A stretch of DNA of 43,221 nt from Bacilli bacterium (GTDB lineage Bacteria; Bacillota_I; Bacilli_A; RF39; UBA660). The notes beneath the pieces were generated by a model. That model saw only the letters and a program-made list of their open reading frames with translations. It was not told the origin of the DNA and did not search any database. Of the stretch, positions 2,880 through 15,735 are shown piece by piece (the stretch's first letter is position 1; the number at the start of each line of letters is the position of its first letter). The position numbers and the translations under genes are program-made. The stretch is taken from NCBI GenBank assembly GCA_017887425.1, contig JAGHHZ010000022.1:1-43221 (forward strand), written 5' to 3'.

Positions 2880-3493
2880 TGATTTATCCAGAAACAATTA
2901 ATAATTTAATTGAATGTTATAAAAAGTTACCAGGCATTGGTGAAAAAACAGCTGAAAGAATGGCTTTATATAGTTTAGAATTAGATCAAGAAATAATTGA
3001 TCTTTTTGTGCAGTCTTTAACAAATTTAAAAACTAAAATAAAAAGATGTAAAATATGCAATAATCTATCACAAGATGATATTTGCTCAATCTGTGCAAGT
3101 GACGGACGGGATCATAACGTTATTTGTGTTGTCGAAGAGCCAAAAAATGTTTTTCAATTTGAAAAAATTGGTTCTTATCGAGGCTTATATCACGTTTTAG
3201 ATGGTCTTATTTCTCCTTTGGAAAATATCAATCCTGAAGATATTAATTTAGATAGTTTAATAAAAAGAATCGACGAAGAAAGCATCAAAGAAGTTATTAT
3301 TGCAGTAAAGCCTAGTGTTGAAGGGGAGACAACAGCTTTATATATTTCTAAAATACTAGAAGGAAAAAAAGTTACTATTTCTAAAATTGCTCATGGTGTT
3401 CCATTGGGAGCAGATATGGATTATGTTGATGCTTTAACTTTAGAAATGGCATTAGAAGAAAGAAAAAATATTACAAGTAATTCAGAAGAATAA
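2879..3493 (+). CDS. recR: Recombination mediator protein RecR
   Basis: 204 residues, the usual family length. The N-terminal helix-hairpin-helix contains LPGIGEKTAERMA, followed by a zinc finger with cysteines in CKICNN and CSICAS, and a Toprim domain starting VICVVEEPKNV and ending GVPLGADMDYVD. RecR works with RecF/RecO to load RecA at single-strand gaps. The start overlaps the ybaB stop by one base. Confidence 0.97.
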   Translation: MIYPETINNLIECYKKLPGIGEKTAERMALYSLELDQEIIDLFVQSLTNLKTKIKRCKICNNLSQDDICSICASDGRDHNVICVVEEPKNVFQFEKIGSYRGLYHVLDGLISPLENINPEDINLDSLIKRIDEESIKEVIIAVKPSVEGETTALYISKILEGKKVTISKIAHGVPLGADMDYVDALTLEMALEERKNITSNSEE

Positions 3494-10600: not shown

Positions 10601-10867
10601 GAATGGTTTGAAGCTTTAGCTAATAAACTTAAGATTAGAAAAGTTAAACAAACTAATAATGCCGTAGAAGTAATGTTAGATAAAGAAATAACTTCTAAAA
10701 TTGATGGTGAAAAATTATTCTTAGATACTTTAAAAATTAATAACAATTTTAAATTTGGTATGATAGGTGGTAACTTAATCATTAGTTTAAGAATAGATAA
10801 TTTAGAAAAACATTTTATTTATTATTTAATTGATTTACTATTTGTTATCGATAAAGCTAAAGAGTAA
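7634..10867 (+). CDS. mfd: Transcription-repair coupling factor
   Basis: 1077 residues, close to the usual ~1150. The order is an N-terminal UvrB-like region (to ~residue 340), the RNA-polymerase-interacting domain (GDYIVHNIHGIGRYLG near 415), then the SF2 translocase with Walker A GDVGYGKTE (near 560), DEEQRFGV (near 660), SATPIPRTL and QLRGRVGR, and a C-terminal TRCF domain. It displaces stalled RNA polymerase and recruits UvrA. In Bacillus, mfd is followed directly by spoVT; here a DGR of about 4 kb lies between them. Confidence 0.97.
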   Translation: MDIFKKIFNNYNGKEVGGLTDELKCIYISNSYHDNLILVVCNSLYEANKFYQTLKNYVNEVYFFPMDDFMTSEVLAISPDFKMTRLETLDTIVKKNKGIVVTNLMGYLRFLPTKDNFINSYVKLKVGDSFDIKELTKKFYNIGYERDVVVNKTGEMAIRGYVVDIFPTNYNNPIRIEFWGDEIESIRFFDINTQLTIDTIKEVEIVPNSEFLIDKDIDFEYNHRDLIKYGSSNIYEYMNDLLFYNELDDIKVGYNNLLEEVFEYNTSNNLDKNTKYFHDLPSYDSINLYQKDTFGVNYDSYKLEDKFTNVEIMKEILTKYSKTKTVIICVSNRYQANKIIDEIDCVFTNINEIYENKINIVIFNINEGFIYNNYVFISENEIFNKNSKIMPYKTNFKYGTRIKDITKLEIGDYIVHNIHGIGRYLGMKTITKNGLNKDYLQIEYKGGDKLYIPVEKIEMISKYSSKEGYEPKLNKLGTTEWTKVKLKAKARAKDIAKELLKLFALRQMSPGFKFNNDDENQIEFDKEFPYEETKDQIKVWEEIKKDMESPHPMDRLLCGDVGYGKTEIAFRAAFKAILSGKQVALLCPTTILSNQHYQNALERFKSFPINISLVNRFITPKKFKETVENIKEGKVDFVIGTHKLLNDEIVYKDLGLLIIDEEQRFGVTHKEKIKKLKSNIDVLTLSATPIPRTLQMSLSGIRGLSTIETPPNNRYPVQTYVVSYNKKLIKDAIYKELSRNGQVFLLYNRIDNMNSKLEEISSLVPDAKVVCAHGRMNKTELEDIMLKFINKEFDVLLCTTIIETGIDIPNANTLIVIDADKFGLSQLYQLRGRVGRTNKIAYCYLMYDNSKILSEIAHKRLNAIKEFTELGSGLSIAMRDLSLRGAGDFLGSEQAGFVDSVGIELFTELLKQEIDKLKGIEVTEEEDTQPLIEVDTYIDDNYVKEEELKIEIHKKINEIDSYDKLISVQKELEDRFGKISDKLLIYMYEEWFEALANKLKIRKVKQTNNAVEVMLDKEITSKIDGEKLFLDTLKINNNFKFGMIGGNLIISLRIDNLEKHFIYYLIDLLFVIDKAKE

Positions 10868-10885
10868 AATCTTTAGTTTTTTTTA
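10857..10885 (+). terminator. Terminator at the end of mfd
   Basis: CTAAAGA (10857-10863) pairs with TCTTTAG (10870-10876) over a 6-base loop and is followed by eight T. The stem overlaps the last mfd codons. It separates the housekeeping operon from the DGR. Confidence 0.75.
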
Positions 10886-10890
10886 TTTCC

Positions 10891-10929
10891 GTGTGTGTGT
10901 AATTTTAAAAATAAATTGTTATGTATAAT
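10891..10929 (+). promoter_or_regulatory. (GT)5 tract and candidate promoter of the DGR target gene
   Basis: A (GT)5 run fills 10891-10900, and a perfect TATAAT -10 lies at 10924-10929. No good -35 is visible at 17 bases (the position falls at AATTTT). The target gene starts 93 bases downstream with ribosome binding site AAAGGAG. A dinucleotide repeat beside a promoter recurs in this element, at 13128. Confidence 0.4.
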
Positions 10930-11021
10930 GATTAATTTAACTAAAAATAAGATAAAATTAATTTGAAAGTAAGGAATAGAAAAATAAAAATATTTCATAC
11001 TAAAATTGAAAGGAGTTTTTT

Positions 11022-12776
11022 ATGAAGAAAGGTTTTACGTTAATTGAATTATTAGCCGTAATTATTATACTAGCCATTATAGCATTAATCGCTACACCAA
11101 TCATATTAAATGTAGTTGAAGATGCTAGAATATCAGCAGGTAAATCAGAAGCCCAAATGATATATAGTGGAATAAATAATTATTGTGCATCATCAATGAT
11201 GGAAGAACAATTGAATGGAAAAGTTGATATATGTGCAGATGGGGTAACAACTGAAGAAGTATCGCAAATGGTTAATCTAGGAAATGCCACAGTTAATAAA
11301 GTAACATATAGCAATGGTAAAGTTACCGAGTTAGAAGTAGAAAGTAATAATCATACATTTAAACTATGTGGTGATGGAAGCTTTGTCATGGATGATGAAG
11401 AATGTGGAGTAACACCACCAGATGTTGGATTGGTAGGAGATGCCATAAGTGAGACAGTATTAGAAAAATATCCTTATTTAGCAACAACAGGAAATGGATG
11501 TACAACTTCTAATGAAAATAATTATAGTTATATGGGAGGATGTTATTTAAAAGGAAATCCAACTGATAATTATTTATGGTATTCAGGATTCTTATGGCGT
11601 ATTATGGGAATTAATGCTGATGGAAGTGTGAGATTAATAACGGATGAAAATGTTACAGGAATATCATATCACGAAAGCAGTTCAAATTGGGATGGAAGTC
11701 ATGCTAAAGATTGGTTAAATAATTATTTTTATCCAAGATTAAAAGGCAATGATATTATTGTAGAGCAAACATGGTGTAGTGAGACTACGACAAGTAGTTC
11801 AAGTGCAAGAACAAGTTGTAGCAATAATTTATCGACTGAAAAAGCTAAAGTGGGTTCAATATCATTAGATGAATATAATTTAGCTGGTGCTGGGAATTCA
11901 TATTTAAATATAGGTCAATATCAATGGACATTAACGCCATATAATGGTTCTAACGCTTGGAGCGTCAGCGACTGTGGCAATGCCTTCAACGACGGCGTCC
12001 ACGGCGCGTACGGCCTTCGTGCAGTTATAAATGTCAACTCTAATGTCACCATTACCGGAGGTAATGGTACTCTAGGGGAAACTTGGAGTAGTGAAGCTGG
12101 TCCATATATTTTAAACGAAGATAAGAGTATAGAAGTAACAGGAAAATTAAACGAAAAAGCAACAAGTGGAGAATATGTATTATATGCAGGCAAGAAATAT
12201 CGGATAGTCTATAAAGATAGTAATGGCAATACGAAATTAATATTAGATGGCTATTATGAAAAAAATGACAGTGTTTATGAAATGGAATATGGCGATAATA
12301 ACACCTTTTCAACAACAACAGGAATAGGGCAAAAATTAAATAGTGATGTATTAGAATGGTTAGTAGCAAGTAGTGATACTGAAAATAGAAATAAATTAGT
12401 AACAAATTATACTTGGTATCAAAATGAATTTGATGGTGGTGATAATTATACAATATCATTAGAAGAAACTAATCCAACAAGGAGTATCAATGCGACAGTA
12501 GGGTTAATAAGAGTAGGTGAGATGTTATCAAGTCAAAGCAGTAGTATATTAACAAAAGGATATACAACAACAAGTAGTTATAATAACGCTAATACTTATT
12601 GGACAATGACACCATCTAGTTCTAGTTCTGACGCTTGGTACGTCGGCAACGGTGGCGATTCCAACTGCAACGGCGACGTCAACCTCGCGTGCGGCCTTCG
12701 TGCAGTTATAGTTGTCAACTCTAATGTCACCATTACCGGAGGTAATGGTACTTGGTCGAGTCCATACGAAATATAA
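11022..12776 (+). CDS. DGR target protein with prepilin N-terminus and two variable repeats
   Basis: 584 residues. The N-terminus MKKGFTLIELLAVIIILA is a type III prepilin signal: cleavage after Gly4, Phe at +1, Glu at +5 and a hydrophobic helix to ~residue 27. Two ligand-binding-like modules follow (about 145-350 and 385-580). Each ends in a segment of the form AW..V...G.....V..A.GLRAVI.VNSNVTITGGNGT, resembling the C-type-lectin/FGE-like ends of known DGR targets. VR1 covers residues 309-334 and VR2 covers 535-561. The VR codons are GC-rich and unlike the AT-rich remainder. The likely role, inferred from the signal and the family, is a surface- or pilus-displayed binding protein whose two sites are diversified by the reverse transcriptase downstream. 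Its binding partner cannot be read from sequence, and no pilus assembly genes are in the window. Confidence 0.9.
   Translation: MKKGFTLIELLAVIIILAIIALIATPIILNVVEDARISAGKSEAQMIYSGINNYCASSMMEEQLNGKVDICADGVTTEEVSQMVNLGNATVNKVTYSNGKVTELEVESNNHTFKLCGDGSFVMDDEECGVTPPDVGLVGDAISETVLEKYPYLATTGNGCTTSNENNYSYMGGCYLKGNPTDNYLWYSGFLWRIMGINADGSVRLITDENVTGISYHESSSNWDGSHAKDWLNNYFYPRLKGNDIIVEQTWCSETTTSSSSARTSCSNNLSTEKAKVGSISLDEYNLAGAGNSYLNIGQYQWTLTPYNGSNAWSVSDCGNAFNDGVHGAYGLRAVINVNSNVTITGGNGTLGETWSSEAGPYILNEDKSIEVTGKLNEKATSGEYVLYAGKKYRIVYKDSNGNTKLILDGYYEKNDSVYEMEYGDNNTFSTTTGIGQKLNSDVLEWLVASSDTENRNKLVTNYTWYQNEFDGGDNYTISLEETNPTRSINATVGLIRVGEMLSSQSSSILTKGYTTTSSYNNANTYWTMTPSSSSSDAWYVGNGGDSNCNGDVNLACGLRAVIVVNSNVTITGGNGTWSSPYEI
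11946..12024 (+). repeat. DGR variable repeat 1 (VR1)
   Basis: Aligned without gaps to the TR at 12880-12958. By my count there are 15 base differences over 26 codons, 14 of them at TR adenines. The exception is codon 13 (TCC in the TR, GCC here). Changes are limited to positions 1 and 2 of AAY codons. The 3' end CGGCCTTCGTGCAG is identical to the TR and is the likely initiation-of-mutagenic-homology segment. Confidence 0.93.
12048..12068 (+). other. Hairpin/cruciform downstream of VR1
   Basis: ACCATTACC (12048-12056), loop GGA, GGTAATGGT (12060-12068): a perfect 9-bp inverted repeat starting 24 bases after the end of VR1. DGRs such as the Bordetella phage element need a hairpin just downstream of the VR for efficient retrohoming. 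The same element recurs after VR2 at the same distance. Confidence 0.82.
12624..12705 (+). repeat. DGR variable repeat 2 (VR2)
   Basis: A second VR in the same gene. Against the TR it has one extra codon inside the AAC run (five codons between TCC and GTC, against four). About 16 further substitutions all sit at TR adenines, apart from the first boundary base (A for G). The 61 bases beginning at the shared 3' end (12692-12752) match 12011-12071 after VR1 with two mismatches. Confidence 0.93.
12729..12749 (+). other. Hairpin/cruciform downstream of VR2
   Basis: The same perfect 9-bp stem and GGA loop as after VR1 (ACCATTACC / GGTAATGGT), again starting 24 bases after the end of the VR. It encodes ITGGNGT in the protein, so the same bases serve coding and probable target-site recognition. 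Confidence 0.82.
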
Positions 12777-12820
12777 GAAGATAAAAAAAGAAAAAGATAT
12801 ATAAAAGTACAAACAAGGGA

Positions 12821-12854
12821 ATCACACCTTGCCGATAGAGTGGCAAGGTGTGGT
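12821..12854 (+). other. Strong hairpin upstream of the TR
   Basis: CACACCTTGCC (12823-12833) pairs with GGCAAGGTGTG (12842-12852), an 11-bp perfect stem that a G-T and an A-T pair extend to 13, over an 8-base loop. No T-run follows, so it is not a standard terminator. It sits 25 bases before the TR and may cap, stabilise or process the TR RNA, or protect the target mRNA 3' end. Confidence 0.6.
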
Positions 12855-12879
12855 GTGTATGGGGATAAGAATATAACAA

Positions 12880-12958
12880 GGTTCTAACGCTTGGAACGTC
12901 AACAACAATGGCAATTCCAACAACAACAACGTCAACAACGCGAACGGCCTTCGTGCAG
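12880..12958 (+). repeat. DGR template repeat (TR)
   Basis: A non-coding adenine-rich template of 26 codon-equivalents. Thirteen are AAC or AAT, giving 26 mutable adenines, all at codon positions 1 and 2 in the frame of the VRs. Randomising the adenines of AAY gives NNY, which encodes 15 amino acids and never a stop. The 3' end GGCCTTCGTGCAG matches both VRs, then diverges (AT here, TT in the VRs). Order is target, TR, accessory genes, RT, all on one strand. Transcription is probably by read-through from the target gene, since I see no clear promoter between 12777 and 12880. Confidence 0.94.
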
Positions 12959-13069
12959 ATTCCTTCTAAACTTAATTTATATGATTAAGGTTATATAAAA
13001 AAGAATTAGGAAACAATTCTTATTCCCTAGGTTAAACCTAAAAATATTAGTAATATGCAACTAGAATAG
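12959..13069 (+). ncRNA. Structured spacer of the TR RNA (Sp-like region)
   Basis: The ~110 bases between the TR and its terminator hold three small inverted repeats: CTTAAT/ATTAAG (12971-12989), AAGAATT/AATTCTT (13001-13021) and TAGG/CCTA (13028-13040). In the Bordetella DGR, a downstream spacer of about 140 nt folds, binds RT-Avd and self-primes cDNA synthesis. Position and size fit, but the function here is inference. With the TR and terminator it fills most of the 391-base stretch without a protein gene between 12776 and 13168. Confidence 0.5.
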
Positions 13070-13110
13070 AAACAGTTTAGTAGAGAAATCGAAAAACTGT
13101 TTTTTCTTTT
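13070..13110 (+). terminator. Terminator of the target/TR transcript
   Basis: AAACAGTTT (13070-13078) pairs with AAACTGTTT (13094-13102) over a 15-base loop, followed by TTTCTTTT. It ends the TR RNA before a new promoter and so separates template synthesis from the RT operon. Confidence 0.75.
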
Positions 13111-13119
13111 GGAAAACTA

Positions 13120-13149
13120 TTGACAACGTGTGTGTGTGTGTGAGATAAT
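13120..13149 (+). promoter_or_regulatory. Promoter of the DGR accessory/RT operon with a (GT)7 spacer
   Basis: Consensus -35 TTGACA (13120-13125) and -10 GATAAT (13144-13149) are 18 bases apart. Of these, 13128-13141 is a perfect (GT)7 microsatellite. Gain or loss of one GT would set the spacer to 20 or 16 and should change promoter strength. This is a classic architecture for phase-variable promoters, but switching itself is not shown by one sequence. Confidence 0.75.
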
Positions 13150-13167
13150 ATTATTTAGGGTGATTAT

Positions 13168-13578
13168 GTGAGGTTAGTTGATATAAGAAATAAATTAAAA
13201 TTAAAACATAACGAAGCTATTATTTTTATGAAATATGGTAATTTTTATAGGGTATTTGATGAGGATACATATATTATAAGTGGTTTATTAGGTTATAAAA
13301 TATATGAAAATAAAGTAGGATTTCCAATTAGTGAATATAAAAAAGTAAGAAAAATATTAGATATGAATTATATTAGTTATATTTTTTATAACGATATTGA
13401 AGAAATAAAGGAAAATAATAATTATGAGTTATGTTTAGATTATTTTAAAAGGAAGTTTTATCAAAAGGAAATATTAAAAGTATTGGATAATTATAATGTA
13501 ATTGAGGAATTAGAGAAGATATTAAAAGTAATTAATTATAGTAAACTAGTTGAATTAAAGGATAAATATGAAAAATAA
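13168..13578 (+). CDS. MutS-domain-I-like DGR accessory protein (MSL type)
   Basis: 136 residues. Residues ~10-85 resemble the mismatch-binding domain I of MutS. HNEAIIFMKYGNFYRVFDED corresponds to the MutS segment with GDFYE..FFEDA, and KVGFPISEYKKVRKIL to its G-P-H/YxxY part. The MutS aromatic-containing GxFYE motif is altered here to GNFYR. MutS-like accessory genes have been reported in some DGR loci. The start is GTG at 13168 with AGGGTG 5 bases upstream; the nearby ATG at 13166 runs into TGA at once. Its stop overlaps the Avd start region, so translation is probably coupled. Biochemical role unknown. Confidence 0.75.
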   Translation: MRLVDIRNKLKLKHNEAIIFMKYGNFYRVFDEDTYIISGLLGYKIYENKVGFPISEYKKVRKILDMNYISYIFYNDIEEIKENNNYELCLDYFKRKFYQKEILKVLDNYNVIEELEKILKVINYSKLVELKDKYEK

Positions 13579-13916
13579 TGAATTATTAGTTATTACTAAT
13601 ATTAAGAAAACTATTTTATTTTTTTGATAATATATTGCTTAATTTTCCTAAAAAAGATTATATATTAAAAAATAAGATTGAGTTAGTTTTATATGATTTA
13701 TTAGAAAGTATTTATATGGCTAATTATTTAGCTAAAGATGAGCGAATAAATAAATTATATTTATGTTTAACTAAAATAAAAATGTTGGATTTTTACATTA
13801 ATATTAGTTTTAATAAGAAGGTTATAAGTTATAAAAAGTTTATTAAAATATGTGAATTTTTAAATAATATTGTTAGATTAATATATGGGTTTATTAAATA
13901 TGAAAAGAATCGGTAA
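13568..13916 (+). CDS. avd: Avd-like DGR accessory protein, interrupted by a T7 frameshift
   Basis: Avd is a small basic four-helix-bundle pentamer that binds the RT and the template RNA. The body (FPKKDYILKNKIELVLYDLL onward) is in the frame from 13635, where only a TTG start without a clear ribosome binding site is available. The expected N-terminus, MKNNELLVITNIKKTILFF, is read from the ATG at 13568 (overlapping the upstream stop) but in another frame, ending at TGA 13625-13627. Removing one T from the T7 run at 13619-13625 joins the two into a 115-residue Avd. So either the gene is broken, the run is a sequencing error, or a +1 frameshift at TTT-TGA or polymerase slippage produces the full protein. 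It overlaps the RT start. Confidence 0.7.
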
Positions 13917-14883
13917 TGTTTATAATAAATTGTGTGATTTGGATAAGATAATTAATGTTTATAAAAAAATAAAAAGTAATACTAAAAATAAAACAAAACT
14001 AGAAAAATTTGAAGATTATTATTGTATTAATTTAGTTAATATATATAATACTTTAAAAAATCACAATTACAAAATAGATAAATATAATTTATTTATAATT
14101 TATGAACCTAAAGAAAGATTGATTTTAAGTTTAAATTTAAAGGATAAAATAATTAATCATATGGTGGCTTATTTATTATTTGATATTTTAGAAAAGAGTT
14201 TAATTGATAGTAATGTAGCAGTTAGAGTTAATAAAGGAACTAGTTATGGAATTAAATTAATAAAAAAATATATTAATTGTTATAAGGATTATTATGTTTT
14301 AAAATGTGATATTAAAAAATATTTTTATAGTATTAATCATAAAAAGTTAAAAGATTTATTAAGTAAAAAAATAAAGGATAAGTTATTTTTAAATATAGTA
14401 TATAAAATAATTGATAGTACGAATGAAGAATATATATTTGAATATGCTAGTAAACATAATATCAATTATTTAAAACAAGGATATGGTTTAAGTATTGGTA
14501 ATATGACTAGTCAAATATTAGGAATATTTTATTTAAATGATTTAGATCATTATATTAAAGAAAATTTAAAAATAAAGCATTATATAAGATATATGGATGA
14601 TTTAGTATTATTTCATAGTAATAAATTATATTTAAAAGAATGTTTAAAGAAGATAATTATTTTTTTAAACAATTATGATTTAGAGTTAAACAATAAAACG
14701 GTAATAACTAAAAATAATCTATGTTTTTTAGGTTACCACTTTTATAATAAAAAAATAAAGATATTAAGTAAAAATAAAAGAAGAATATATAAGAAATTAA
14801 GAATATTAAAAAAATATAATCTTGAAAAATACAATAAAGTATTAAGTAGTTATTATGGTTATTTTAAAATTCAAAAATATTAA
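13900..14883 (+). CDS. DGR reverse transcriptase
   Basis: About 327 residues. The start MKRIGNVYNKLCD resembles other DGR RTs, so the ATG at 13900 is preferred to 13885. Motif 3 has KCDIKKYFYSI with catalytic Asp near 137. Motif 4 is IGNMTSQ (199-205), the small-residue/SQ form of DGR and related group-II-derived RTs. The active site is YMDD (231-234), followed by motif 6/7 residues in CFLGYHFY. It copies the TR RNA with adenine-directed errors and delivers cDNA to the VRs. It overlaps the Avd end by 17 bases with no visible ribosome binding site, so translation is likely coupled to Avd. No maturase, endonuclease or integrase domain is seen. Confidence 0.95.
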   Translation: MKRIGNVYNKLCDLDKIINVYKKIKSNTKNKTKLEKFEDYYCINLVNIYNTLKNHNYKIDKYNLFIIYEPKERLILSLNLKDKIINHMVAYLLFDILEKSLIDSNVAVRVNKGTSYGIKLIKKYINCYKDYYVLKCDIKKYFYSINHKKLKDLLSKKIKDKLFLNIVYKIIDSTNEEYIFEYASKHNINYLKQGYGLSIGNMTSQILGIFYLNDLDHYIKENLKIKHYIRYMDDLVLFHSNKLYLKECLKKIIIFLNNYDLELNNKTVITKNNLCFLGYHFYNKKIKILSKNKRRIYKKLRILKKYNLEKYNKVLSSYYGYFKIQKY

Positions 14884-14928
14884 GTATATTTTATTAGTAT
14901 TTAGGTAAAACTAAATTCGAGGTGAAAT

Positions 14929-15459
14929 ATGAAAACGACAGGTATAGTAAGAAGAATAGATGAATTAGGACGAATTGTTATACCTAAAGAAATTAGAAAG
15001 AGTTTAAGAATAAAAGAAGGAGAGAGTTTAGAAATATTAATTGATAACGAAGATATCATATTAAAAAAATATTCTGTTATTAAAAATTTAAATGATTTTG
15101 CGCAAAATATTACAGATTCAATTTATTCTTTTATTAAAAATAATATTTTAATTACTGATACTAATAGTATTTTGGCTGTTTCTGGTCCCTTAAAAAAAGA
15201 ATTATTAAATAAAAGTATAGGAACTGATTTAGAATTAAAAATAAAAAGAAGAGAAGAAATGTTAGAAAAGCATAAGAAAGCTTTAAAAATAACCGATAAA
15301 GAACTAGAATGTACTTATGCTGTTAGTCCAGTTATTGTTGCTGGTGATGTGATTGGTTTAGTTATGATAATTAGTACTGAAGATAATGTTGAAGATGTTG
15401 ATTTAAAGCTTACACAAATAGCTTCTAAATTTTTAAGTAATCATCTTGAAGAAGTGTAA
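14929..15459 (+). CDS. spoVT: Stage V sporulation regulator SpoVT
   Basis: 176 residues, near Bacillus SpoVT (178). It has an N-terminal AbrB swapped-hairpin DNA-binding domain (MKTTGIVRRIDELGRIVIPKEIRK) and a C-terminal GAF-like domain from ~residue 55. SpoVT tunes sigma-G-dependent gene expression in the forespore. The length and C-terminal domain separate it from AbrB and Abh. In Bacillus it follows mfd, which is the basis for calling the DGR an insertion. Ribosome binding site CGAGGTGA. Confidence 0.93.
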   Translation: MKTTGIVRRIDELGRIVIPKEIRKSLRIKEGESLEILIDNEDIILKKYSVIKNLNDFAQNITDSIYSFIKNNILITDTNSILAVSGPLKKELLNKSIGTDLELKIKRREEMLEKHKKALKITDKELECTYAVSPVIVAGDVIGLVMIISTEDNVEDVDLKLTQIASKFLSNHLEEV

Positions 15460-15564
15460 ACATGCGTAAAATGTCGCTATTTGTATACAAAAAATGTTGT
15501 GCTTAAATAAAATAATATGTTATAGTTATAGTGTCGTAAAAATAACAGAAGGGAAAAATTAGAA

Positions 15565-15735
15565 ATGGCACGCAAATTAACGGAGTGTTCAGCCTTAATT
15601 TTGTTATTCATACCAGTTTTTGTAGCTATTGCTAGTGTGATAATAAAATTTAATGTTGTCGATTTTGTGTATTTAGTATTAGTGGGAGTAATATTTTTGA
15701 AGTATTATATTAAAACAAGAAAACAAAAAAGTTAA
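15565..15735 (+). CDS. Small membrane protein, 56 residues
   Basis: An open frame from ATG 15565 to TAA 15735 encodes MARKLTECSALILLFIPVFV and onward, with two probable membrane helices (about 8-28 and 31-47) and a basic tail TRKQKS. A GAAGGG ribosome binding site lies about 11 bases upstream, and the end of the frame overlaps a strong terminator. It sits alone between spoVT and tatD. I do not recognise the family; a small sporulation or membrane peptide is possible. The rest of the gap 15460-15564 is AT-rich with no other feature I can support. Confidence 0.5.
   Translation: MARKLTECSALILLFIPVFVAIASVIIKFNVVDFVYLVLVGVIFLKYYIKTRKQKS

Follow-up and report, generated by a model that had tools for sequence, protein, structure and literature searches.

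A frame break at a T7 run in the avd gene of a Bacilli DGR, probably a recent loss of function, and a microsatellite-spaced predicted promoter in the same operon

Little is known about how diversity-generating retroelements (DGRs) are regulated and how their hosts avoid the endless mutagenesis of a useful variant. The described systems closest to the locus reported here are the DGRs of Ruminococcus gnavus, Acaryochloris and Bacteroides with a recently inactivated reverse transcriptase (RT), which carry a nonsense, frameshift or insertion lesion and whose inactivation is dated in PMC3521204 as very recent from differences between template repeat (TR) and variable repeat (VR) that are confined to adenines. 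That the accessory gene avd is needed is reported for the BPP-1 DGR, where avd nonsense mutants fall to about 1e-9 (PMC12875486). Further precedents concern short repeats. In Listeria inlA, the product is cut short when a run of six to seven bases close to the 5' end changes in length by one base; this A6/A7 slippage turns the gene off and on at low rates of about 5.5e-7 (A6 to A7) and 3.9e-8 (A7 to A6) and is polymorphic within the species (PMC2831843). In the phase-variable promoter of the Haemophilus pilus genes hifA and hifB, a dinucleotide repeat, (TA)9-11, lies between the -35 and -10 boxes and sets their spacing (PMC2651432). Finally, in the +1 frameshift of prfB, the RF2 gene, a Phe or Leu codon is followed by UGA and the product goes on in the +1 frame.

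The window, a stretch of 43,221 nt that forms contig C34 of a 36-contig, 1.24-Mb MAG (87.6% complete), carries a DGR whose parts all lie on the forward strand. The target gene (11022..12776) encodes a protein of 584 residues with a prepilin-type N-terminus (Pfam N_methyl, 26.9 bits, and DUF6273; NCBIfam IV_pilin_GFxxxE) and contains two variable repeats. VR1 (11952..12024) departs from the TR at 15 of 73 positions; 14 of these are adenines in the TR, and its best 50 nt contain one non-A mismatch, whereas VR2 (12630..12705), which has a 3-nt insertion relative to the TR, shows 11 mismatches at adenines and none elsewhere in its best 50-nt frame. The A-rich TR itself, recognized by the TR/VR comparison, lies at 12886..12958, so that the locus holds the pairs differing at TR adenines that define a DGR. 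It is followed by a hairpin with a T-run (13070..13106), which was found by eye and recurs in altered form in relatives; it is a possible end of the TR transcript, and a terminator scan made no call for it. Downstream of a predicted promoter, the operon comprises, in this order, a gene for a small MutS domain I-like protein (13168..13578; 136 residues from a GTG start; Pfam MutS_I, 26.7 bits against a cut-off of 20.6), avd, and the RT gene (13885..14883; RVT_1, 64.2 bits). The latter begins before avd ends, at ATG 13885 or 13900, and no ribosome-binding site could be made out by eye at its start. Its translation carries IGNMTSQ and YMDD, the former in agreement with the DGR RT motif (I/V/L)GxxxSQ (PMC3521204).

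Preceded by AAAGGA, by eye a plausible ribosome-binding site, the N-terminal frame of avd (13568..13627) starts at ATG 13568, is translated as MKNNELLVITNIKKTILFF, enters TTT-TTT-TGA within a run of exactly seven T (13619..13625) and is closed by the TGA at 13625-13627. The body of the gene (13626..13916) follows in the +1 frame, which reads FFDNILLNFPKKDY...KNR up to a stop at 13914-13916; read through the break, the product would have 115 residues. The original prediction, that the N-terminus from ATG 13568 joins this body once one T is removed, was right in both coordinates and join. The body alone matches bAvd (Pfam, 38.3 bits, E 2.1e-9, cut-off 40) and DivGenRetAVD (NCBIfam Avd, 37.3 bits), and the profile of the avd family also hits the PDB Avd chains 4dwl and 8ub7. 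Joining the halves raises the NCBIfam score to 39.7 bits, although not that of Pfam (37.5 bits), and since it lengthens the NCBIfam match to model positions 2-104, the N-terminal frame is part of avd. The nearest in-frame start downstream, TTG 13635, which is the only one in the vicinity, would give 93 residues and omit the first 22 of this helix-bundle protein. The window DGR thus has a true bAvd relative that is split at the T7 run; without an intact Avd, the claim that it is active is lowered, but not its identity as a DGR. Like the DGRs described in PMC3521204, it combines a broken core gene with TR/VR changes at adenines, but there the RT is broken, whereas here the lesion lies in the accessory gene and the RT is open.

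The T7 run as such is unremarkable. The window contains 6 copies of the string TTTTTTTGA, T7 followed by TGA, where 6.45 would be expected, and the window genes (38,967 nt) contain 78 A/T runs of seven or more. It is the broken conserved frame that goes beyond chance. In a comparison of the window with the contig of its sister genome (G010:C6), which covered 39 ORFs, all of them matched, over about 31 kb, the sole clear frame break was in avd, whose two successive halves lie in different frames. A 75-residue antisense ORF, probably not a gene, is split as well, an in-frame indel distinguishes the two DGR target genes, and one ORF (239 residues) has no match above 50% identity.

Comparison with relatives shows the extra T to be private to the window genome. 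In the alignment, the sister locus (L004; RT 95% identical) has T6 and a single intact avd frame, while in the seven other genus loci (L005, L006, L007, L056, L058, L059 and L061) TAT or TAC interrupts the run; T6 or longer thus occurs in two of the nine genus loci. A profile search of six-frame translations yielded 71 rows with Avd, or 70 once L080 and L083 are merged; the window is not counted among them, and the two collections of genomes may share further records. Full-length, single-frame avd genes are present in 67 of these 70 records; L025 misses only the N-terminal match, and avd is split in L058, through a 31-nt deletion, and in L072, where an indel near an A-run shifts the frame. These two genes of the family were broken independently. 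The same search found no Avd match in 25 other loci, two of which, L085 and L086, are release-factor loci and not DGRs.

Apart from the break, the avd sequence gives no sign of decay: of 271 nt, 2 are changed relative to the sister, compared with 21 of 400 in the mutS-like gene and 30 of 483 in the 3' half of the RT gene. A 233-nt stretch of avd is identical between window and sister. Gene conversion was considered for this near-identical body and rejected, because in other pairs, too, avd belongs to the best-conserved parts, except L005 versus L006, and no special event is claimed. The sister is not a clean control, as its RT motif reads TNQ rather than TSQ and its promoter spacer has 10 nt; the TR/VR search recognized no TR in it, and about 2950-3100 it holds unrelated sequence with a short repeat. 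In L058, with the deletion in its avd, TR and VR show three non-A mismatches in 50 nt, which fits an older loss. In a further locus, L207 (genome G205), a fusion joins the MutS-like ORF to the end of the RT, and avd and most of the RT are deleted, but TR, VRs and GT-repeat promoter are kept in this remnant. Judged from L058, L072, L004 and L207, lesions of the DGR recur in this clade.

We consider it probable that one extra T, acquired very recently and most likely through a slip in an ordinary T6 run, has inactivated avd in the sampled genotype; of the options raised in the original prediction, that of an inactivated accessory gene is the best supported, given the private T7, the intact T6 gene of the sister and the two independently broken avd genes. 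Strand slippage from T6 to T7 would be the simplest route. Ribosomes would then halt at 13627 and the Avd helper would be lost. As the RT gene begins before avd ends and lacks a clear ribosome-binding site, RT translation would lose its coupling and probably be lowered too; with Avd lost and RT lowered, the window DGR is probably off or nearly off in this genotype, its RT, TR and VRs being intact. By analogy with PMC3521204, mismatches that lie almost only at TR adenines would be the signature of a very recent inactivation. Such a break would be an ordinary loss of function, in keeping with the observation that DGRs are often switched off through mutation. A return to T6 through slippage may be possible, and the inlA example makes slow, reversible slippage at the avd T7 plausible (PMC2831843), although inlA varies within a species and avd is represented by a single genome of its species. 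One reservation is that a second DGR on another contig of the same genome (C27:628-1838 of G000; L080 and L083) has an intact Avd (75.6 bits), which might act in trans; it also has its own MutS-like ORF.

The main competitor of a recent inactivation, to which we give a minor but substantial share of the probability, is an assembly or sequencing error, with a true sequence of T6 and an intact avd. The window genome is a fragmented and incomplete MAG, and strong constraint on avd, fresh-looking TR-VR pairs and the intact gene in nearly all relatives are what one would expect of a functional gene. On the other hand, no second clear frame break was found in the comparison with the sister contig, despite the many genic A/T runs, and two more avd genes of the family are broken as well.

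A selected contingency tract, in which T6/T7 slippage in avd would be a maintained on/off switch of mutagenesis, appears improbable. The run does lie near the 5' end, at nt 52 of avd, where homopolymers often sit (PMC2831843), inlA provides a reversible precedent, and the operon promoter holds a second slippage-prone repeat. The avd T7 nevertheless lacks what marks phase-variable homopolymers, an over-long tract that is kept in relatives, most of which interrupt the run; and as T7 runs are ordinary here, both a dedicated contingency tract and a programmed frameshift are unsupported. The idea of a contingency-type element in this operon, also part of the original prediction, is weak for T7 and finds a better candidate in the GT microsatellite of the promoter, on which that prediction is silent.

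Slightly less credible still is a leaky rescue, in which transcriptional or ribosomal slippage at T7 yields enough full-length Avd. In E. coli, RNA polymerase is reported to slip at about 5-10% on T7/T8 and to delete on T8, but it needs at least seven T, which places T7 at the bacterial threshold (PMC6260861), and these figures are those of the E. coli enzyme, not the host's. Likewise, a small minority of RF2 genes shift at UUU_U (PMC5009743), but this site shifts far less than CUU_U, and the stimulator is absent; some leakage of Avd through transcriptional slippage could nonetheless accompany an inactivated gene. An RF2-type programmed +1 frameshift is the most remote of these readings and is rejected on the relatives and the missing stimulator: the likeness to the RF2 site holds for the shift codon and UGA at 13622-13627, where TTT-TGA lets the P-site re-pair one base on, and the organism itself uses RF2 frameshifting (prfB GGAGG-TTA-CTT-TGA, L085), but ahead of the avd site the Shine-Dalgarno-like GGAGG is absent, UUU stands in place of CUU, and no two-frame layout is conserved, the intact avd genes of the relatives, sister included, needing no frameshift.

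A better lead than the T7 break may be the promoter of the operon, which lies about 490 bp upstream of it. The predicted boxes, TTGACA and GATAAT (13120..13149), are separated by 18 nt, with TG before the second box, and agree with the consensus at 11 of 12 positions. Their spacer is a GT microsatellite (13128..13142); no other (GT)6 exists in the 1.24-Mb assembly, and in shuffles of the window none is expected. The site is the best in a promoter scan of 10800-15600, but as the scan total (37 sites) is no higher than in shuffles (39.2), the case for a promoter rests on conservation. TTGACA-N0-4-GTGTGTG is found in nine of 18 genus genomes, always at the DGR; these coincide with the nine genus members that carry this DGR, with RT identities of 72% or more. 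In all nine loci both hexamers are identical, while the spacers measure 18, 10, 22, 20, 20, 20, 20, 20 and 22 nt. Three loci from two other genera (L088, L090 and L207) have spacers of 15, 9 and 14 nt, so that the range over the 12 loci is 9-22 nt, with the repeat between the predicted boxes in each. Between window and sister the spacing differs by 8 nt, compared with changes of 0 to 4 nt at other aligned promoter-like intergenic sites; the promoter of the second DGR, whose spacer is not a repeat, is identical in the two genomes.

A longer version of the GT pattern, which excludes L090 with its shorter tract, matches six of 386 family genomes. Four of these (G000, G011, G270 and G205) have it at DGR loci or remnants, but in G258 and G195 the match is not near a DGR, which speaks against the GT promoter being exclusive to DGRs. 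A search for the GT promoter in viral contigs gave 81 stretches; among the 80 loci examined, none had a related RT at E 1e-3.

A spacer that changes by repeat units between fixed boxes fits slippage and resembles the hifA/hifB promoter, although there the repeat is TA and drives pilus genes (PMC2651432), whereas here it is GT, precedes a DGR operon, varies between species and lies between predicted boxes. We therefore propose, tentatively and from sequence comparison, a phase-variable DGR, in which GT slippage between the boxes would stochastically tune targeted mutagenesis and avd slips of the T6/T7 kind would add slower, reversible nulls. If so, the length-variable spacer would be a hypermutable control over a hypermutator, and gut Bacilli cells would alternate between diversifying and fixing a surface pilin-like protein. 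Among the papers listed for DGRs with phase variation or simple sequence repeats, titles and the beginnings of abstracts describe no such promoter switch. Several points weigh against the proposal: all length comparisons are between species, two family loci share the pattern away from DGRs, most spacers exceed the optimum, and the TG that closes the repeat could form an extended -10 element tolerant of spacing. The optimal promoter spacer is 16-18 nt.

Two further observations concern the neighborhood of these elements. In a motif scan, stand-alone MutS domain I-like ORFs were found in 31 loci, although the one in L103 is probably a true MutS. The Glu after FY, which is the mismatch reader of MutS, is present in only three of the 31, and our guess is that the small protein may protect heteroduplexes of the DGR against mismatch repair. 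Moreover, a (GT)5 tract lies at 10891-10900, upstream of the DGR target gene, and likewise at 808-817 in the sister locus L004.
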